DNA of 64,000 nucleotides from Natronomonas gomsonensis (GTDB taxonomy: Archaea; Halobacteriota; Halobacteria; Halobacteriales; Haloarculaceae), in the NCBI RefSeq assembly GCF_013391635.1, contig NZ_JACAWU010000002.1, forward strand, positions 186,001 to 250,000, read 5' to 3'. The notes under the pieces were generated by a model. It made no database searches and was not told where the DNA came from. It saw nothing but the letters and a program-made list of their open reading frames with translations. Position 1 is the first letter of the stretch. The number at the start of each line of letters is the position of its first letter. The position numbers were made by a program, and so were the translations under genes. This document shows, piece after piece, positions 29,935-47,070 of the stretch.

Positions 29935-31050
29935 ATGGGGCTCAAAGAGGAGATCGAGGCGATCGAAGAGGAGATCGCCAACACCCCGTACAACAAATCG
30001 ACCGAACAGCATATCGGTCGGCTGAAGGCCAAACTCTCCGAGAAAAAAGAGGAACTCGAACGCAGACAGTCCTCCGGAGGCGGTAGCGGTGGCTACGCCG
30101 TCGAGAAACACGGCGACGCGACCGTCGCGTTGGTCGGGTTCCCCTCCGTCGGCAAATCGACGCTCCTCAACGCCCTCACGAACGCCGACAGCGAGGTCGG
30201 TTCCTACGAGTTCACGACGCTCGATGTCAACCCCGGCATGCTGGAGTACAACGGCGCGAACATCCAACTGCTCGACGTGCCCGGCCTCATCGAGGGTGCC
30301 GCCGAGAACCGCGGCGGCGGCCAGGCCGTCCTGTCGGTCGTCCGAACCGCCGACCTCGTGTTGTTCGTCCTGTCGGTGTTCGAGATTCAGCAGTACGAGC
30401 GCCTGCGCGAAGAACTGTACAAAAACAAGGTTCGCCTCGACACCGAGCCGGTGCAGGTCAACATCCGCAAGAAGCACAAAGGCGGCATCAACCTCACCAC
30501 CTCCGACCGGGTGACCCTCGACGACGATACTATCATGGGCGTCCTCCGGGAGTACGACTACGTCAACGCCGACGTGACCATCCGCGAGGACCTCACCATC
30601 GACCAGTTGGTCGACTCACTACAGGCCAATCGGGAGTACCTCCCGTCGATGGTCTGTGTCAACAAAGCCGACCTCATCGAACCCGACTACCTCGAAACCG
30701 TCAACGAGCAGTTGCGGGACCACGACATCGACCCCGAGGAAGCGGTCTTCATCAGCGCCGAAGAGGAGAAAGGACTGGACTCCCTGAAACAGACTATCTG
30801 GGAGGAACTCGGCCTCATCCGCATCTACATGGACAAGCCGGGGCGCGGCGTCGACCGCGAGGAACCGCTCATCCTCACCGAGGAGGAAAACACCGTCGAC
30901 GACGCCATCGACAAACTCGGCGGGAGCTTCGACGAGCGGTTCCGGTTCGCTCGGGTCACCGGTTCATCGGCAAAACACGACGAACAGCAGGTCGGGAGGG
31001 ACCACGAACTCCACGACGAGGACGTCCTGCGAATCGTCGCCCGGAAGTGA
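29935..31050 (+). CDS. drg: Drg-type Obg-family GTPase
   Basis: 371 residues. N-terminal coiled coil (EEIEAIEEEIANTPYNKSTEQHIGRLKAKL), then the G domain: G1 GFPSVGKS at residues 68-75, G2 TTLDVNPG, G3 DVPG followed by LIEGAAENRGGG, G4 NKAD, G5 SAEEE, with a Drg-type insertion before G4 and a TGS domain at the C-terminus (PLILTEEENTVDDAIDKLGGSF). Eukaryotic DRGs bind ribosomes and assist stalled translation; the archaeal role is likely similar. ATG 29935 fits the family N-terminus. Confidence 0.94.
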   Translation: MGLKEEIEAIEEEIANTPYNKSTEQHIGRLKAKLSEKKEELERRQSSGGGSGGYAVEKHGDATVALVGFPSVGKSTLLNALTNADSEVGSYEFTTLDVNPGMLEYNGANIQLLDVPGLIEGAAENRGGGQAVLSVVRTADLVLFVLSVFEIQQYERLREELYKNKVRLDTEPVQVNIRKKHKGGINLTTSDRVTLDDDTIMGVLREYDYVNADVTIREDLTIDQLVDSLQANREYLPSMVCVNKADLIEPDYLETVNEQLRDHDIDPEEAVFISAEEEKGLDSLKQTIWEELGLIRIYMDKPGRGVDREEPLILTEEENTVDDAIDKLGGSFDERFRFARVTGSSAKHDEQQVGRDHELHDEDVLRIVARK

Positions 31051-31520
31051 TCGCCGTGAGCGACGACTCGGCCGCACGTCGCAGATTGCTCGCCGTAATC
31101 GCGGTAGGGCTGCTCCCGTGGACCGTCCTCCTCGTCGGCCAGACGACGTTCGTCTTCTCGTTCGGACTGGTGAGTCTCGACCCGCTCCATCTGACCAACG
31201 TCTACGAGTTCCTCTTCGTCTACACCGACGCCCTCCCACGTCGACTGCAAGCGTGGCCGGCCGGAATACTTCTCTACACGGGCGCGCTCGCAAGCGCGGT
31301 GTCCGGCCTCTGGGATTTCGAGGACCCTCGGCTCACCGGCGGCCTACTCGCATTCGCCGGCGTCGCCCATGCACAGGTGTCCTACGGACTGTTTCGGACA
31401 TACGCGCTTCCACTCTCGGAGTTTCCGGTGATTCCGCTCGGCGCCATCGCCTCCTGGACCGTCGTGTGGTGGTACTACTGGCCGCTGGCTCGACAGAAAG
31501 GCCTCGGCCCGCTGGATTAG
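31047..31520 (+). CDS. Haloarchaeal membrane protein (TIGR04206-like)
   Basis: 157 residues with about four or five membrane segments (for example 14-33, 70-88, 98-115 and 124-146) and Trp-rich end segment WTVVWWYYWPLARQ. The GTG at 31047 overlaps the drg stop (GTGA); a second GTG at 31056 is an alternative start giving VSDDSAARRR. It resembles a haloarchaeal family catalogued as TIGR04206, from memory. Translationally coupled to the GTPase gene. Function unknown. Confidence 0.7.
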   Translation: MIAVSDDSAARRRLLAVIAVGLLPWTVLLVGQTTFVFSFGLVSLDPLHLTNVYEFLFVYTDALPRRLQAWPAGILLYTGALASAVSGLWDFEDPRLTGGLLAFAGVAHAQVSYGLFRTYALPLSEFPVIPLGAIASWTVVWWYYWPLARQKGLGPLD

Positions 31521-32617
31521 GACTCGGTTTCAGTTGGGGTTGAGTCCTCGGAAACGCGCCACGTTCCGTCGACAGCGACGCGGACTCCATCGACCGAAAC
31601 GTCACGCGTCGTCGCCGATGTGCCGATTTCGTTTTCGATCGTGGCCCGGTCGGGCACCTCTCCCTCCGGATAGACGGCCGCGAGGGACGCCGTTCCCTCC
31701 TCGGGTCCGAGCGTGAAGGAACTCACGAGGCCTGTTGCGGATTCGAGCACTGGGCCGCTCTCTACGAACTGACCGGTGTCGGCCTCCTCTCCGCCCGCAC
31801 CGCCCGATTCGGGGTCGATTCCCCACGCACCCAGCGTGACGTGGCCGTTGCCAGCGGTCTCCAGTGCCCACCCGCTGTCGTCGGCCTCGCCGAACCGTTC
31901 GGTTTCGCCGGCGATGGTGTCGAGTACGGTGTCGAGGCTCGATTCGCTGTCCAACAGCGTGACGAGCGTGTCCTCGCGGACTGCGAAGGCCAACCCCTCC
32001 GTCGAGAGAAAGCCCTCGCCGGTGCCCTCGTACACCTCGAAGTCGCCCCGCTCCTCGCCGGGTTCGAACCCCTCGGAGGCGGCGACGACGGCATCGGCGT
32101 CGAAGGAGCCACGGAAGACACCGACGCCGTCGACGAGCAGCATCGAATCGACGCGGAGTTCGTTCCCTGAATCGGGAGTCGCCGTCGACGAATCGGTGTC
32201 GTTGTCGGCGGTTTCCTCGGGGAGTTCCCCATCGCCAAGGGGGCCGAGAAGCCGGTCGGCGAACCCATATGGAACGAGTCCGAACCCGAGGCCGATGCTC
32301 CCTATGAGGAGACCGGCGGTGGGGTAGGCGACCAGCGGGTCGACGTTCACCGGCGCGGTGTCGGAACCGATGTCGATGTCGACGGCGTCCGGGAGCTCCT
32401 CGGCGTAGGGGAGTTCTTCCTCGCCATCGTAGCGTCGGAGCCACTCGGCGTCGATGTGGACGAAGAACACGCCGGCGTCGTCGTTTGCGCCGTCTTTGGG
32501 CGTGCTGTCGTTGTATGCCGGCGTTTCACCGCCGTCGAGAACGCCAGTACAGCCAGCAACTGTCGCCAGCGGGAGGGCGGCCGTCGCTTTCAGTACGTCG
32601 CGTCGGTGGAGGTCCAT
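31517..32617 (-). CDS. Tat lipoprotein of unknown function
   Basis: 366 residues. Signal MDLHRRDVLKATAALPLATVAGCTG with twin Arg and lipobox VAGC, so it is an anchored lipoprotein after Tat export (Cys23). The mature part is strongly acidic with two similar halves of about 150 residues (LLVDGVGVFRGSFDADAVVAA and LVSSFTLGPEEGTASLAAVYPEG) that look like an extracytoplasmic beta/alpha fold. A hydrophobic stretch near 100-125 (AGLLIGSIGLGFGLVPYG) could be buried core. No motif identified. Its 3' end overlaps the upstream convergent gene by 4 bases. Confidence 0.75.
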   Translation of the reverse strand: MDLHRRDVLKATAALPLATVAGCTGVLDGGETPAYNDSTPKDGANDDAGVFFVHIDAEWLRRYDGEEELPYAEELPDAVDIDIGSDTAPVNVDPLVAYPTAGLLIGSIGLGFGLVPYGFADRLLGPLGDGELPEETADNDTDSSTATPDSGNELRVDSMLLVDGVGVFRGSFDADAVVAASEGFEPGEERGDFEVYEGTGEGFLSTEGLAFAVREDTLVTLLDSESSLDTVLDTIAGETERFGEADDSGWALETAGNGHVTLGAWGIDPESGGAGGEEADTGQFVESGPVLESATGLVSSFTLGPEEGTASLAAVYPEGEVPDRATIENEIGTSATTRDVSVDGVRVAVDGTWRVSEDSTPTETES

Positions 32618-33632: not shown

Positions 33633-34586
33633 ATGAGTCTCTCCGCGCTCCCGACGAGTGGCCCATCGGTGTTGCCGGTCACCGACGTGCTCGCGTGGAT
33701 TATCGTCGCTGTTTTCTTCGCCGGCGTGCTCGCGGAGTCGACGGACCGCCGTGCGGCGGCCCGAAAACTGACCGCGGGCGCGTGGGGGCTGTTTTCCGTG
33801 TTCTGGCTGCTCCTCATCCACTTCTACGTCTTCGTCCACCGGAGCATCGTCGAGACGGTGTTGGTCGCCATCGCCGTTCCGGCGTGTCTGTACGTCGGCT
33901 GGCGGCTGTATCACGGCCGAGATTCGCTGCTCGTGGTCTCCAGAGCCGTCGCGTTCATGGGGCTGCTGTACTTGCCCTTCGAGACCTCGCCCGTCGCCCG
34001 GCAGTTCCTCATCGAGACGGTCGCCACGCAGACGGCGTGGCTCATCGAGGCACTCGGCTACGGCGGGGGAATGGAACTCGTCGAGGACCCCTTCGACGAA
34101 TCGGGGTACGTGAACACGTTCTTCTTCCCGGCGACGGGTCGGTCCTCCCAAATCGTCTTCGCCTGCACCGGGTTGGCGAGCATGGCGATTTTCGGCGGCC
34201 TCTCGGCTGCCGTCGACGCGCCGCTCCGCCGGAAAGTGACCGCAGCCGTCGCGTCGGTGTCCATCATCTGGGTGCTCAACCTCGGCCGAAACGCCTTCAT
34301 CGCCCTGGCGAACGGCCACCAGTGGTTCGATTACGCGTGGCTCGAAGGGCCGGTGATGTTCGTCTTCGGGCTGTCGGACCCCGGGCGGGTGTCGTTTTTC
34401 GTCGCCGACCGAATCCTCTCACAGGGGCTCGCGGTGTTCGCGCTCATCGGCGTCGCTTGGCTCGTCTCGCGGTGGCTGCCCGAACTGTTGGACATCGCCG
34501 AGGAACTGCTGTCGCTGCTGACGGGTAGTGAGGTGACCCTCCGCTCGCCACAGACGGCCACTGACGGAGGTGACCCCGAGCCGTGA
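33633..34586 (+). CDS. Archaeosortase (ArtA-like)
   Basis: 317-residue membrane transpeptidase-like protein, about eight segments. Catalytic-type residues: Cys178 in VFACTGLASMAIF, Arg219 in LNLGRNAF (41 residues on, as in Haloferax ArtA C173/R214), and a third Arg, most likely Arg260 in VADRILSQ. ArtA removes the C-terminal PGF-CTERM signal and attaches lipid to surface proteins. ATG 33633 follows a TATA-like box (acatatac, 33601-33608). Its stop overlaps the next gene by 4 bases. Paralogous to the gene at 35668. Confidence 0.9.
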   Translation: MSLSALPTSGPSVLPVTDVLAWIIVAVFFAGVLAESTDRRAAARKLTAGAWGLFSVFWLLLIHFYVFVHRSIVETVLVAIAVPACLYVGWRLYHGRDSLLVVSRAVAFMGLLYLPFETSPVARQFLIETVATQTAWLIEALGYGGGMELVEDPFDESGYVNTFFFPATGRSSQIVFACTGLASMAIFGGLSAAVDAPLRRKVTAAVASVSIIWVLNLGRNAFIALANGHQWFDYAWLEGPVMFVFGLSDPGRVSFFVADRILSQGLAVFALIGVAWLVSRWLPELLDIAEELLSLLTGSEVTLRSPQTATDGGDPEP

Positions 34587-35596
34587 CCGAGGACTCACGG
34601 CTGGAGGGTCTCCGTGAGGTATCGAGGCGGCGCTTTCTCGCAGGTGCAGGCGCGACGCTCGGCGGAGTCGGTGCGGCGAAGGCGATTCACAACACGACGC
34701 TCGGGTACGGCCAACTCGGCATGGGGACGAACCTCCACGAGCAGGACCTCGCTCCGGTCGTCACCGAGCGCTTGACGCCGAGTTACGACGAGACGGTCGA
34801 CGGCACGCGGCTTCGCCTCGTCGAGAACGGCGTCACGGCGTGGAACGACGACGCGACGCACCGACTCGAGTTCAGGGAGGACTCTATCGACGATGCCCGC
34901 GAGGTCGATTCGGAACTCGGTCTCGGTGGGCGCCTCGCCGCGCTGTTCGCCGACGGCGAAGCGCTGTTGGCTGGCGACTACACCTTCGAGTTCAGCCAAC
35001 CGGAGGCGTTCTTCGAGCGCGTCACGCAATCCGACGCTCGCCCCGACGCCGTCGCGGCTGTTCGGGGCCGTCGTGACCGAACCGTCGACCCGGCCATCGT
35101 CGAGCGGTTCGCCGATGTCGCCCCAGCGAAAATCGAAGCCCTCGTCGACGGTCTCGTTGCGGGGTTCCGCGAGCACGCGGGGTACGACATCCCTCGGTAT
35201 CTCGCCGGCTCCGTCGAAGACAACGTCGCCTTCGGCACCGTCGACCTCCGGAAGCACTTCGAGGGGGAGGTCACCTTCGAGGCGATTTTAGAAAACGACG
35301 GGACGGGGCTGTTCTGCTGGGAGTTGGTCCATCGCTCGATAGACGCGCTTCAAGCGGTCGGCCCGTGGCAACAGAGCGTTCCGGTCGCGGCCTGTTACAT
35401 CAGCGACCGGCGGCACAAACACGCCTTCACGGGCGTTACGAGCGTCATCCGCGAAGACGGCGGCCTCGTGTTCCCGATGACGTTCCTCGATTACACCCAC
35501 TCGACGCTGTACGACGACCTCCACATCACGGGCGTGACGGGTGAGGGATTGGCGGCGTACACCGACGGCCACCGCGCCGACGAAGTGTTCTGGTGA
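34583..35596 (+). CDS. Tat-exported protein of unknown function in archaeosortase locus
   Basis: 337 residues. Tat signal: SRRRFLAGAGATLGGVGAAKA at about residues 14-34, then a soluble domain with no lipobox. It is translationally coupled to the archaeosortase upstream (GTGA overlap). The C-terminal third shows a possible Cys-His-Asp set: Cys245 in GLFCWELVHRS, His278/His280 in DRRHKHAF and Asp303 in FLDYTHS, with spacing that recalls transglutaminase or papain-like enzymes. This is inference. Tat signal is followed by no membrane anchor. Possible surface-acting partner or substrate of the archaeosortases. Confidence 0.8.
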   Translation: MTEDSRLEGLREVSRRRFLAGAGATLGGVGAAKAIHNTTLGYGQLGMGTNLHEQDLAPVVTERLTPSYDETVDGTRLRLVENGVTAWNDDATHRLEFREDSIDDAREVDSELGLGGRLAALFADGEALLAGDYTFEFSQPEAFFERVTQSDARPDAVAAVRGRRDRTVDPAIVERFADVAPAKIEALVDGLVAGFREHAGYDIPRYLAGSVEDNVAFGTVDLRKHFEGEVTFEAILENDGTGLFCWELVHRSIDALQAVGPWQQSVPVAACYISDRRHKHAFTGVTSVIREDGGLVFPMTFLDYTHSTLYDDLHITGVTGEGLAAYTDGHRADEVFW

Positions 35597-35667
35597 CGGT
35601 TCCGCGTGGACTGGACACGGGCCAACAAGGATTTTACCGCACCGACCCTTCCTGTCGGTACGCATAG

Positions 35668-36636
35668 ATGCTCCCCTTCGACGTACTGGCGGTGACGGAC
35701 CCGCTGGCGTGGGTTCTCATCGCGCTGTTCGGCGGCGGCGTCCTCGCCGAGCGATGGCGTCCGGACCTCGCACGCTACGTCGTCGGCGCTGCGTGGGGGC
35801 TGTTCGCCGTCTTCTGGCTGCTGCTCGCGCCGTTTTTCTTCTTCGAGCAGAACAGTTTCGTCGAGGCGTTGCTCGCTCTCGTCGGGGTGCCGGCGTGTCT
35901 GTACGCTGGCTACCTGCTCGTCGACGGGCGAGACTCGCTGTTCGTCCTCTCGCGGGCCGTGGCGGTGATGGGGGTCATCTACCTCCCGGCGGAGACGATA
36001 CCGCTGGTCCGACAGCTGTTGGTCGAACACGTCGCCAGCCAGACGGCGTCGCTGATGTCGTTACTCGGCTACGACCCGACGCTGCAACCCATCGGGCCGG
36101 AGCGGCCGGCCTACGAGGGGTTCCACGCCGCGTTCTTCTTCGAGACGGCCGACCCGAACCACGCCGGCATCGTCTACAACATCATCATGGCGTGTACGGC
36201 GCTGGGGAGTATGGCTATCTTCGCCGGCTGTATCGCCGCGGTCCGGGCGCCGTTGCGACGCAAGCTCCGGGCGCTGGCCGTCTCTATCTCCATCATCTAC
36301 GTCCTCAACATCATCCGGACGACGTTCATCGGGCTCGCCTTCGGCCACCAGTGGTTCGACGGGCCCTATACGCCCTATCTACTGACGCTGTTCGGCGAAT
36401 CCGACCCCTACATGGTGTCCCACATCGTCGCAGAGGGCGTCATCAGCCAGCTGCTGTCGGTCGTCGCGCTGGTGGCGATCGCGTGGTTCGTCATCCGCGA
36501 ACTCCCCGAGTTGCTCGTCATCATCGACGACGTGGCGTACATGGCGACCGGCGAGGACCGCGACACGGCGTCGGAACTCGGACTGCTACCTGATGCCAAG
36601 GATGCGGTGACCGAACGGCCGACCAGCGACGACTGA
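35668..36636 (+). CDS. Second archaeosortase-like protein, altered third catalytic residue
   Basis: 322-residue paralogue of the protein at 33633. Cys176 (MACTALGSM) and Arg217 (LNIIRTTF) are kept with the same 41-residue spacing. In the block equivalent to VADRILSQ it reads VAEGVISQ, so the third Arg is missing, with His252 four residues before. C-terminal tail is acidic and soluble. Own TATA-like box (gattttacc near 35632) fits a separate transcript. May be an archaeosortase with different substrate range, or a reduced-activity partner. Divergence from the first paralogue is large, so duplication is old. Confidence 0.88.
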   Translation: MLPFDVLAVTDPLAWVLIALFGGGVLAERWRPDLARYVVGAAWGLFAVFWLLLAPFFFFEQNSFVEALLALVGVPACLYAGYLLVDGRDSLFVLSRAVAVMGVIYLPAETIPLVRQLLVEHVASQTASLMSLLGYDPTLQPIGPERPAYEGFHAAFFFETADPNHAGIVYNIIMACTALGSMAIFAGCIAAVRAPLRRKLRALAVSISIIYVLNIIRTTFIGLAFGHQWFDGPYTPYLLTLFGESDPYMVSHIVAEGVISQLLSVVALVAIAWFVIRELPELLVIIDDVAYMATGEDRDTASELGLLPDAKDAVTERPTSDD

Positions 36637-36646
36637 CTCGCCTTCT

Positions 36647-37447
36647 CTACACCGGGTCGGGAAGCGACTCCTCGGGTGCGCCTGCCAACGTCGACAGCGC
36701 GTCGTGTTCGATGACGTGGAGGTCGCCCGGAATCACGAGCAGGTGCAGTGGGTCGCCAAAGCTTCGGTCGGCGAGGGAATCGAGTCGGTCGGCGGCGACC
36801 ACCGGGTCAGGGCTTCCCGCGCGGGCGACGACACAGCCGACACAATCGAGTTCCTCGGAGAGCAGCTCGGCGGCGTAGTCGGCTGTCATGTACTCCTCGT
36901 GGTCGGGGTCGATTCCCGACGGTCCGGTACCGACCTTGATGTCGAGGTAGACGAGGGTGTGGAGTCCGCGCTCGCGGTTGTCGGCGATGGTGTCGTGGAC
37001 GCTGCCCGGAACGCCGTCGGCGCCGTGGGCATAGGGGAAGGGGAGCGTCGTCGCCTTTCCGAAGCGGTAGTTCTGGAGGCCGGTCAGGGAGGCAGCGGCC
37101 GCCTCGGCGGTCGTCCCGTGGACGACGTGGGTCTCGATGCCGCGCTCGGCGGCCCGGAGTCGCAGGTCGACGTGGGTGGTGGAAATCATCGTGTCGCCGG
37201 CGGTGAGGAAGACGCACTCACCGTCCTCGGCAGCGTCGAGTATCGGGCCGGGGTCGGATTCGACGCCGGGGCGGTCCCGGACCTCGATGTCGGTGTCGTG
37301 GTAGGATTCGAGGGATTGGACGCTCGCTCCGGCGAGTTTGCTGGTGTAAAATTCCGCGAAGACGCGGTCGGCCGACCGAATCGCCTCCCGCCCCTCGACG
37401 GTTATCGAGCGTTCGTCGTAGAGGCCGAGACCAACGAAGGTGAGCAT
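36647..37447 (-). CDS. dphB: Diphthine synthase DphB
   Basis: 266-residue SAM methyltransferase of the CobA/DphB fold. MLTFVGLGLYDERSITVEG and FLTAGDTMISTTHVDLRLRA mark the DphB active site; the C-terminal part contains RAGSPDPVVAADRL and GDPLHLLVIPGDLHVIEHDAL. Makes diphthine on eEF2 His, the precursor of diphthamide. Start 37447 (MLTFVGLG) is the family N-terminus. Convergent with the second archaeosortase. Confidence 0.93.
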   Translation of the reverse strand: MLTFVGLGLYDERSITVEGREAIRSADRVFAEFYTSKLAGASVQSLESYHDTDIEVRDRPGVESDPGPILDAAEDGECVFLTAGDTMISTTHVDLRLRAAERGIETHVVHGTTAEAAAASLTGLQNYRFGKATTLPFPYAHGADGVPGSVHDTIADNRERGLHTLVYLDIKVGTGPSGIDPDHEEYMTADYAAELLSEELDCVGCVVARAGSPDPVVAADRLDSLADRSFGDPLHLLVIPGDLHVIEHDALSTLAGAPEESLPDPV

Positions 37448-37537
37448 ACCTCCGTTCGGGGGCCCGCGGTCAAAAGCGCCGCGCTCGCCGGCCGCGGAAG
37501 CGTCAGGCTTACCGCCCACGCCCGCCGACCGCCCGTA

Positions 37538-38614: not shown

Positions 38615-41239
38615 ATGCGTACCGAATCGACAACCACGGAGCGTGTTCGTTCGCTGCTGTTGGTCGCCGTGATGATTTGTGCTCTCGTCGGCGGCTCTGT
38701 CGCGGTGGCCGGGTCGGCGACGGCAGACCTCGACACCTCGTCGAGTTTCACGACCGACGACACGAGCAGCGACAGTACCGACAGCACCGAGAACAGGTCC
38801 GAAACGGACAGCGGGACGAACACGACCGAGTCGGAGGAGACGGCCGAGAACGAAACCCGGACACACACCGGAGAGGCGACGGCCGGGCCGGATAGCGTCG
38901 GCGTGACTGCTGGGGCGGATGGACAACCGGCAATCGCGACCGCCGATGCCGGGCCGGCCACGCTGCGGTTCACGGAGGACGAGGCCAACGGCTTCCCGGC
39001 CGATGGGACGGCAACGCTGACGCTCCCCGAAGACGGCGGCGTGACGTTCGACACCGAGGCGAGTTCGGTCTCGGTGACCGCGACCAACGGGACGGTCTCT
39101 GAGACGATGCTGTCGGAACGGGAACTCTCGATTGCGGTCGACACCGAAGACGGAACCGACACCGAAATCGCCGTCGACGGACTTCGGTTCGTCGCCACGT
39201 CGGATGCGACAACCACCGAGGCGACGTGGTCGTTCGGAAACGCGACCGGAACAACGACGGTCGAACCGGAGCGAATGACGGCCGCCGGATTCGGCTCGAT
39301 CGTCGCACGCGGCGTCGACGGCGGTCCCGACGGTGGCGCCGGATTCTCGCTGCAACCCGACCCACAGAACGCCCGGACCAACGGCTTTCACGAACGGGGC
39401 GAGTTCGTCGGCGTCTTCATCCCCGAGGAGTACGCCGACCGAATCGCCTTCGACCGCTCTTCGATCGACGACCTCGAAATTCGGACCAGCAACCGGTGTC
39501 ACCGGGACAATCTCGCCGAATCGACGGGCACCAGAAACGCCTACGTTCAAGGCAACGTGCTGTTCTTCAGAGTCTACTGCCAACTCGACCACGACGACTA
39601 TCTCACTGTCCAGAACGTCCGGTTCAACGTGACGGGTGCGACTGCGGACGAGACTCCCGACTTCGATGCGGCACTCGACGTGAAGTACGACCCCGTGAAC
39701 AACACCGACTCGACGCGTGTGGCGGCCGACGGCGACACCCAAGTGTCCGTCCGCTCGCCGACCGTCGAGGGGGTGAACACCTCGGTCGAACGAAGTTCGA
39801 ACGCCACCGCCGGCGACCAGTCGGTGTCGGTTACGGTCGCCGACGAACACGGCGGGCTGGTCGCCGATGGGAGCCAACTCACCGTCTCGCTGACCGGCGG
39901 CGACGGCGTCTCGTTCGACGACTCTCAGAGCGTCGAAGTCGTCTCCGAGAGCGACTCCTTCACTGCGACGGTCGCCGACGTAACGCCGGACTCGCTCGTC
40001 CTCGACGTCGACGGCGACAGTTCCGCGGGCGATTCGCTGACGATTCAGGGCGCCAACGAGAGCGGCCTCGCTTTCGATGTCGGCGAGAACGCCTCCGACG
40101 CCAACCTGACGGTGACGACCAACGCCGGGGGCGACGACGTGACCCAGTCGGCGGGGAGCGTCTCAGTCGGTGGTTCGGACTCCGGGGCTGACGAAGGAGA
40201 CGAGGGAGAGGACGAAGACAGCAGTGGTGACGACGGTGGTGGTGAGGATGGAATCGGCGATGGTGACGATGGCGACTCCGACGGTGATGGCGAAGACGGT
40301 GAGAACGATGATGGCGAAGACGGTGAGAACGATGATGGCGAAGACGGTGAGAACGATGATGGCGAAGACGGCGAAGAAGACAGCAGCAACGATAGCGACG
40401 ATAACACTGGCGACGGAACCGACGACGGAACTGAAAACGCAGATGACGACTCCGGTCCCTCCGGCGGCTCCGGGGACTCGCCCCCGAGTTCCGGCGGTGG
40501 CGGCGGCGGAGGCGGAGGTGGCGCCCCCGCGGATGACTCGACCGACGACTCCGCTGCCGACGACAACGCCGCAGCGACGGCGACCCAACCCCTCGAGGAC
40601 GCCGCACCCGACCAGCCCGGCACGACCGTCGAGTTCGACATCGGCATGCTCGATTCCATCACCTTCGCCGAGGGGGCGTCGGGCAACGTCACGGTGACGG
40701 TCCACGAGGCGCTCCCCGAGGGCGTCCCCGCCACGCCCGGGACGATGATACGGGCGATGACAATCGAGGTGCCCGAGGAACTCGAAAACGAGTCGGCCAC
40801 CATCACCATGTCAGCCGATGCCGACTCGCTCGATGCCGACGCCGAGCGGGTCGTGCTTGGTCACTACGACGACGGGGATGGCGAGTGGGACACCCTCGAA
40901 ACGACGGTAAGCGAGTCCGAGAGTGGCGAGTTGACCTTCGAGGCGACCACGCCCGGATTCTCGCTGTTCGCGGTCCAGACGACCCAGTCGACGCCCACTC
41001 CGACGGCGGCACCGACGCCGTCCGGGAGTGACGGGACGGCAACGCCGGCTGATTCCGAAACGGAAACGACAACACCCACCGCCGCCCCCGGCGACGACGC
41101 TGGTGGTGACGGCCCCCTCAACGAAGCCGCCGGTTTGACCGAATCGATGGGAACGAGCGTTCTCCTCGGCGTCGCGATTGCCGCGCTGCTGCTCGTCGTC
41201 TCGGGTATCCGGCTGTACCGTCGCAACGATAGCCTGTAG
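38615..41239 (+). CDS. Large Ser/Thr-rich surface protein with PGF-pre-PGF-like region
   Basis: 874 residues. Signal peptide near 12-37 (SLLLVAVMICALVGG...), then a Ser/Thr/Asp-rich stretch, a beta-rich ectodomain (about 240-560, with a possible disulfide Cys pair near 294 and 321), an Asp/Glu/Gly-rich repeat (560-610), a poly-Gly stretch near 627, and at about 670-790 a block ending ATTPGFSLFAV, which resembles the PGF-pre-PGF domain found before PGF-CTERM signals. A Thr/Pro stalk and one membrane helix (about 846-866, then RRNDSL) end the protein. The anchor lacks PGF. Likely glycosylated surface protein. Confidence 0.85.
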   Translation: MRTESTTTERVRSLLLVAVMICALVGGSVAVAGSATADLDTSSSFTTDDTSSDSTDSTENRSETDSGTNTTESEETAENETRTHTGEATAGPDSVGVTAGADGQPAIATADAGPATLRFTEDEANGFPADGTATLTLPEDGGVTFDTEASSVSVTATNGTVSETMLSERELSIAVDTEDGTDTEIAVDGLRFVATSDATTTEATWSFGNATGTTTVEPERMTAAGFGSIVARGVDGGPDGGAGFSLQPDPQNARTNGFHERGEFVGVFIPEEYADRIAFDRSSIDDLEIRTSNRCHRDNLAESTGTRNAYVQGNVLFFRVYCQLDHDDYLTVQNVRFNVTGATADETPDFDAALDVKYDPVNNTDSTRVAADGDTQVSVRSPTVEGVNTSVERSSNATAGDQSVSVTVADEHGGLVADGSQLTVSLTGGDGVSFDDSQSVEVVSESDSFTATVADVTPDSLVLDVDGDSSAGDSLTIQGANESGLAFDVGENASDANLTVTTNAGGDDVTQSAGSVSVGGSDSGADEGDEGEDEDSSGDDGGGEDGIGDGDDGDSDGDGEDGENDDGEDGENDDGEDGENDDGEDGEEDSSNDSDDNTGDGTDDGTENADDDSGPSGGSGDSPPSSGGGGGGGGGGAPADDSTDDSAADDNAAATATQPLEDAAPDQPGTTVEFDIGMLDSITFAEGASGNVTVTVHEALPEGVPATPGTMIRAMTIEVPEELENESATITMSADADSLDADAERVVLGHYDDGDGEWDTLETTVSESESGELTFEATTPGFSLFAVQTTQSTPTPTAAPTPSGSDGTATPADSETETTTPTAAPGDDAGGDGPLNEAAGLTESMGTSVLLGVAIAALLLVVSGIRLYRRNDSL
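40286..40372 (+). repeat. 24-base tandem repeat in surface-protein gene
   Basis: The unit gatggcgaagacggtgagaa plus cgat repeats head to tail three times (40286-40309, 40310-40333, 40334-40357) with a partial fourth copy, encoding Asp-Gly-Glu-Asp-Gly-Glu-Asn-Asp. The copies are nearly identical, so this is a likely site of slipped-strand length change. Confidence 0.8.
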
Positions 41240-45993: not shown

Positions 45994-47070
45994 ATGACCC
46001 GACGCTACACTGCCGTCTTCGTCACGGCGCTTCTCGTCATCGCGCTCTCTGCGGCCGCCGCCCCCGCTGCGGGCGCGACCGCACAGGAAGACGCCGACTG
46101 TTCGTTTCCGTTCACTGCCACCGACGCCACAGGGACGAACGTGACCGTCGAGGAACGGCCCGACAGCATCGTCGCGCTTCAGCCGAGTGCCGCCCAGACG
46201 CTGTGGGAACTCGACGCCCAGGCCCGCGTCGTCGGCGCCCCGGTCGGCTCCTACACCGACTACCTCGAGGGCATCGACGGGAAGACGAACGTCCTCAACG
46301 ACGACGGGTTCTCCGTCAACCAGGAGGCCGTCGTCGAACTCGACGCCGACATCGTGTTGGCACCGAACATCGTCCCTGACGAGACCGTCCAGAGCCTCCG
46401 AGAGGCCAACCAGACCGTCTACAAGTTCGGCTTCGGCAACTCCCTGCAGTTCGTCGCCGACAAGACCGAACTGACCGGCCAACTCGTCGGCTCCTGTGAT
46501 GCCGCCGAGGCGACCAACGAGGAGTACTGGAACCGCATCGACTCGGTCCGGAACGGCACCGACGCCTACGAGTCGCCGCGCGTACTGCACTTCACCGACA
46601 ACTTCACCGCCGGGTCGGGGACGTTCATCGACGAACTCGTCACGACCGCCGGCGGCGTCAACGTCGCCGCCGAAAACGGCGTCGAGGGATACGGCCAAAT
46701 CAACGACGAGGCCCTCGTGGAGTGGAACCCCGAGGTAATCATCGTCGCCGACGACGAGGGTCGGGTCCCCAACACGGCTGCCTACGAGTCGACGTTCGCC
46801 GTCCAGAACGACCAGGTCGTCGCCATCAACGGCAACTACCTCAGTCAACCGGCGCCCCGAATCGCCATCGCACTGGAGTCAATCGCCGAGGCGTTCGCCG
46901 AGGCCGAACTGGAATCCGACGCGACGCCGGCCGATCCGGAGCAGACACCGGATGACCCGGAGCCGTCGACGACCGAACCGGACTCGACTGACGGCGACGG
47001 CGACGGCTTCGGTGCGCTCGTCGCACTCGTCGCACTCCTCGGCGCCGCGCTCCTCGCGCGTCGGCCGTAA
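45994..47070 (+). CDS. btuF: Corrinoid-binding protein BtuF with PGF-CTERM-like tail
   Basis: 358 residues. Signal peptide about 1-30 ([20 protein letters not shown]), then a class III periplasmic-binding domain ([45 protein letters not shown]). An Asp/Pro/Thr stalk is followed by the C-terminus [24 protein letters not shown], which matches the PGF-CTERM archaeosortase signal except that Pro is Asp. So it is likely ArtA-processed and lipid-anchored. Works with BtuC/BtuD; corrinoid specificity is by family and neighbours. Confidence 0.9.

Follow-up and report, generated by a model that had tools for sequence, protein, structure and literature searches.

Two archaeosortase genes flanking a conserved Tat protein gene in Natronomonas, and a glycine-type class of PGF-CTERM tails accompanying the second archaeosortase

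Introduction

Our question was why a haloarchaeal genome should hold two archaeosortase genes side by side, with a gene for an exported protein between them. In Haloferax, PssA and PssD are needed for the maturation of ArtA substrates (PMC7157517), and Arg253 of ArtA is reported as critical (PMC9263693, citing Abdul Halim 2018). More than 70 haloarchaeal genomes have been reported to lack a clustering of artA with pssD (PMC7157517).

Results

The window (the whole stretch analyzed, 64,000 nucleotides of Natronomonas gomsonensis DNA) contains an artA1-tat-artA2 array at 33633-36636, flanked by TIGR04206 and dph5. All three genes are found where the preliminary description had placed them, with two archaeosortase genes within 3 kb and a Tat gene in between. 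The features considered here are:

31047-31520, + strand: TIGR04206 'near_ArtA' membrane protein (NCBIfam, 123 bits, cutoff 90)
33633-34586, + strand: ArtA1, Tat-linked archaeosortase A, 317 aa (TIGR04125, 331 bits; Cys178, Arg219, Arg260)
34583-35596, + strand: Tat protein of a new haloarchaeal family, predicted to be exported, 337 aa, GTG start
35668-36636, + strand: ArtA2, archaeosortase A paralogue, 322 aa (TIGR04125, 321 bits; Cys176, Arg217, Gly257; own clade; dN/dS below)
36647-37519, - strand: dph5, diphthine synthase (TIGR00522), a conserved flank that marks the canonical artA site
45994-47070, + strand: BtuF-like PGF-CTERM protein with the tail GDGDGFG (TIGR04126, 37.8 bits; PF01497 and PF18204)

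The obg, TIGR04206 and VOC genes on one side and dph5 on the other form the standard artA neighborhood of Haloarculaceae. The artA1 stop and the tat start share four bases (GTGA), and the same overlap recurs in most of the Natronomonas relatives examined and in Halalkalicoccus, in agreement with the translational coupling proposed earlier. The window also holds a Tat lipoprotein-like gene with a TVAGCTG lipobox (31517-32617, - strand), located between the near_ArtA and VOC genes and present in few relatives only, and a gene for a large surface protein (38615-41239, + strand) with a halo signal-like start and a PGF-pre-PGF domain (TIGR04213). The latter has no PGF motif ahead of its C-terminal membrane helix and is kept beside the locus in Natronomonas. 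In many relatives (L129, L137, L140, L143, L145, L159) an S-layer-like PGF-CTERM gene lies directly upstream of artA/tat, where its product carries a QPGF or QAGF tail; it is missing from that spot in the window.

ArtA1 and ArtA2 both pass the TIGR04125 family model (331 and 321 bits at a cutoff of 75; E-values 5e-99 and 6e-96), share 50% sequence identity and are the only artA copies in the 3.38 Mb genome. We inferred the Haloferax ArtA numbering through the g44 loci as Cys173, Arg214 and Arg253, which agrees with the residues reported for Haloferax (PMC9263693). The corresponding residues in our alignment are Cys178, Arg219 and Arg260 in ArtA1, which completes the set anticipated for the first enzyme, and Cys176, Arg217 and Gly257 in ArtA2, with 41 residues separating Cys from the first Arg in both proteins. 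The altered third position noticed earlier in the second enzyme is thus borne out by the alignment, and we could find neither a nearby basic residue that substitutes for Arg253 nor a replacement Arg in ArtA2. A sequence search of solved structures with ArtA1 as query returned no meaningful match.

Comparison of 151 haloarchaeal ArtA sequences revealed the catalytic Cys and the first Arg in every one of them (151/151), whereas the Arg253 column holds Arg in 90, Asn in 27, Ser in 9, Gly in 8, Lys in 7, His in 6, Thr in 2 and Tyr in 1 sequence, with one gap. The third position is non-Arg in 60 of the 151 proteins (59 substitutions and one truncated row), and with Arg in 90 of 151 only, the third Arg is not a defining feature of ArtA across haloarchaea. 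The single ArtA of Natrialbaceae uniformly contains His-Asn or His-Ser at this site, and yet these genomes keep 5-15 PGF-CTERM proteins each (six genomes tested), so that the third Arg cannot be a universal requirement. We therefore rejected its loss as proof of inactivity, the replacement extending over whole families that still have Cys and the first Arg; as a mark of functional difference between the two paralogues, the role given to it in the preliminary description, it is likewise weak. On this alignment, Gly257 need not by itself mean that ArtA2 has lost activity. A correlation of Arg loss with the presence of the Tat protein was also rejected, since Natrialbaceae without the Arg occur both with and without tat. 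The Natronomonas ArtA2 clade alone has a Glu-Gly or Glu-Ser pair in place of the Asp-Arg found in most ArtA: every Natronomonas ArtA2 that covers position 253 has Gly or Ser there, preceded by Glu. Among close relatives, dN/dS is 0.06-0.10 for artA1, 0.08-0.12 for artA2 and 0.12-0.16 for tat, and all three genes are thus under purifying selection. At L120 (genome G354), the second ArtA is very divergent and has Glu-Tyr at the site of Arg253.

Tandem artA genes are rare in the order: ArtA is found in 386 of 392 genomes, and more than one match in only 21, some of them fragments. Eleven of the 18 Natronomonas genomes with ArtA carry the artA1-tat-artA2 trio, with tat fragmentary or inverted in a few, and the trio is hence not confined to the present genome. 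Halomarina, Haloglomus and Halorarius have the order tat-artA-artA, and in Halorarius an HTTM gene separates tat from the two artA copies. We conclude that the pairing of artA1, tat and artA2 is real and conserved, and not due to chance. All seven Natronomonas with a single artA keep the ArtA1 type, adjoining tat, and form one clade (support 94). ArtA1 clades with the Halalkalicoccus-type ArtA linked to tat in family f14 (SH-aLRT 98), and ArtA2 forms a separate clade among canonical ArtA (support 100, branch length 0.92). At L139 (genome G336), the two artA genes enclose an inverted gene for a Tat protein of a different lineage, as though it had taken the place of the usual middle gene.

To compare potential substrates, we counted PGF-CTERM proteins (TIGR04126), of which this genome has 15 above the cutoff and 16 at E <= 0.001. 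At the latter threshold the counts are 5, 4, 6, 7, 7 and 5 in six ArtA1-only Natronomonas and 16, 17, 23, 12, 17, 13 and 11 in seven Natronomonas with both enzymes. The ranges (4-7 and 11-23) are disjoint (exact Mann-Whitney p 0.0012), where p values overstate the link between ArtA2 and Gly-type tails, the ArtA1-only species being one clade and one evolutionary event. ArtA1-only genomes are smaller on average. We next assigned tails to classes by the residue directly ahead of [P/A]GF, using the tails among the matches listed, that is, the better-scoring ones. Within this set, Gly occupies the position in 47 of 66 tails from Natronomonas with both enzymes, in 1 of 29 from ArtA1-only Natronomonas (the lone case is in genome G244) and in 0 of 40 from Natrialbaceae; genomes with canonical ArtA only were hardly sampled, contributing a single tail. 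Natrialbaceae genomes with 13-15 PGF-CTERM proteins still show zero Gly-type tails among the matches listed. Both Natronomonas groups have ∼4-6 tails of the Q, L and S types per genome, among them those of the S-layer-like proteins encoded next to artA1-tat. The Gly-type tails retain the architecture of GF, transmembrane segment and basic residues. Tail peptides used as queries against plasmids gave no match, probably owing to the low-complexity filter. Both the difference in PGF-CTERM counts and the distinct Gly-type tail class that accompanies ArtA2 are new here.

The simplest reading of this co-occurrence across Natronomonas genomes is a partnership between ArtA2 and the Gly-type tails. Our best reading is that Natronomonas would have two archaeosortases with separate substrates, ArtA1 acting on S-layer-type QPGF tails and ArtA2 on Gly-type tails. 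We propose the BtuF-like protein at 45994-47070 as a putative ArtA2-type substrate; its tail is Gly-type, and its relatives in Haladaptatus, Halarchaeum and Natrinema end in QPGF, SPGF or IPGF.

The Tat protein contains the motif SRRRFLAGAG followed by a hydrophobic stretch, and Arg15 and Arg16 are invariant in 32 homologues, although the protein does not reach the cutoffs of the generic Tat models. Searches of Pfam and NCBIfam detected no domain beyond this sub-threshold Tat signal. The closest named record is from Natronomonas sp. CBA1123 (94% identical). Homologues are present in 73 of the 392 genomes of the order (∼18%; 4 of these are weak), and a sample of 247 genomes from the phylum yielded no homologue beyond the order. 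Besides the twin Arg, the invariant residues include Cys245, His278, His280 and Asp303, the last in alignment A2. In an AlphaFold2 model (mean pLDDT 83), a helix begins at Cys245 and a strand at His280, and Asp303 comes after a strand, a predicted layout that resembles the order seen in thiol enzymes. Homology to transglutaminases was rejected (hhalign probability 0.6%), a Foldseek search with the model gave weak arylamine N-acetyltransferase matches only, none at E <= 0.001, and a sequence search of solved structures with the Tat family returned no meaningful match. As judged by these searches, the Tat protein represents a new, conserved haloarchaeal family with no known domain.

Its gene adjoins artA in Haloarculaceae and Halalkalicoccus, and in Natrialbaceae, Halostella, Haloarchaeobius and others it adjoins the NF038088 'protein sorting system archaetidylserine decarboxylase' (pssD). 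The four-base start/stop overlap is seen in most of the tat-artA cases tested and in several of the tat-pssD pairs; in several lineages tat adjoins neither gene. We rejected the view that the pssD-tat adjacencies are many independent events, as genomes that lack tat at this place often have pssD in the same block, and the linkage is probably one old event. On the Tat tree, which is weakly supported in its deep branches, the tat-artA linkage requires a minimum of five changes. The pssD of the present genome is located away from the locus. The preliminary description had included the Tat protein in the arrangement as a protein of unknown function, and it proves to be more than a neighbor, coupling to artA or pssD depending on the lineage. 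From its coupling to artA in some lineages and to pssD in others, we infer that it is probably part of the lipid-anchoring pathway, which makes it a new candidate component of that archaeosortase pathway. An HTTM-domain membrane protein adjoins tat in Haladaptatus, Halorarius and a MAG (L126, L151, L265, L138) and is a possible third partner.

Discussion

Our explanation for the locus, which we consider somewhat better than an even bet, is that two working archaeosortases divide the PGF-CTERM proteins of one cell between them and are joined by an exported partner. ArtA1 would be the main enzyme and process S-layer-type tails (QPGF and similar), while ArtA2 would be a specialized enzyme for the second class, the tails in which Gly directly precedes [P/A]GF; the Glu-Gly or Glu-Ser pair of ArtA2 may be part of this specificity. 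The Tat protein would be extracellular, act in the same lipid-anchoring pathway and probably be accessory to the ArtA/PssD step. A more specific version appears unlikely to us: in one cell, two archaeosortases from a single family would each have substrates of their own, split by the pre-PGF residue and matched by the pair at the Arg253 site, and a new exported enzyme of the Cys-His-Asp type would help to move the cleaved protein onto lipid. The suggestion of a housekeeping enzyme plus a specialized paralogue in the preliminary description fits with the retention of ArtA1 in all seven single-artA Natronomonas and with ArtA2 being present only together with Gly-type tails; the regulatory paralogue offered there beside it is not favored, since a purely regulatory or dead ArtA2 sits poorly with a dN/dS of 0.08-0.12.

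Redundancy of the two enzymes is the rival we take most seriously, if still as an improbable one: the loss of ArtA2 and of Gly-type tails in one Natronomonas clade would then reflect lineage history or genome reduction. It is consistent with a single event in a single clade, with the smaller average size of ArtA1-only genomes and with a shared GF-TM-basic architecture that might suit one ArtA. However, reduction would have taken Gly-type tails almost alone, as Q/L-type tails stay at ∼4-6 per genome in both groups; Natrialbaceae rich in PGF-CTERM proteins (13-15) show no Gly-type tails; and ArtA2 is held under purifying selection. We regard it as very doubtful that ArtA2 is regulatory or catalytically weak for want of the third Arg, serving for instance to tune ArtA1 or to bind tails that it does not cleave. 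The Gly or Ser with preceding Glu in every Natronomonas ArtA2 covering position 253, the long branch (0.92) and the critical role reported for Arg253 in Haloferax (PMC9263693) all speak for it, but there are many single-copy ArtA without this Arg whose genomes still encode PGF-CTERM proteins, every copy has Cys and the first Arg, and selection is not relaxed.

The Tat protein, in turn, might be a passenger beside artA and pssD and unrelated to sorting, an alternative that we also find unlikely. Its linkage to pssD lies within one old syntenic block that also exists without tat and counts roughly once, it occurs in only ∼18% of the sampled haloarchaea, and in several lineages it stands beside neither gene. 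Against this, the tat-artA linkage arose or changed several times (at least five changes, with weak deep support), start and stop codons overlap with both artA and pssD, and G336 has a different Tat lineage at the same site, inverted. A division of labor between ArtA1 and ArtA2 with an exported partner remains our preferred explanation.

The locus resembles the ArtA (TIGR04125)/PGF-CTERM (TIGR04126) system of Haloferax volcanii in that both proteins pass the family model and contain the Cys173 and Arg214 equivalents, and the genome encodes PGF-CTERM proteins. It differs from it by two side-by-side paralogues, two tail classes and an exported partner between the enzymes, and by the lack of an Arg253 equivalent in ArtA2. 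As in the Methanosarcina artA-pssA-pssD cluster (PMC7157517), an archaeosortase gene is grouped with a gene that probably belongs to the lipid-anchoring pathway, but here this gene encodes the new Tat protein, whose relatives pair with pssD in other haloarchaea.

Haft and colleagues reportedly described bacteria with several exosortases per cell, each paired with a separate family of C-terminal signals. Natronomonas likewise has several transpeptidase-like enzymes per cell, but both enzymes and both tails belong to one ArtA/PGF-CTERM family, and the tails differ mainly in one residue before PGF. The locus bears on how ArtA chooses its substrates, on the role of the third Arg and on what else lipid attachment requires in archaeal surface biology: it offers a natural enzyme pair with a predicted substrate split, reveals that entire families have replaced a residue described as critical, and adds the Tat protein as a new candidate part of the anchoring pathway.

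Three genomes (G003, G059, G075) contain ArtA and gave no match to the NF038088 decarboxylase; another lipid donor or enzyme may serve there. In two haloarchaeal MAGs (L337 in G009 and L339 in G025), pssD is located directly next to artA, as it is in Methanosarcina.
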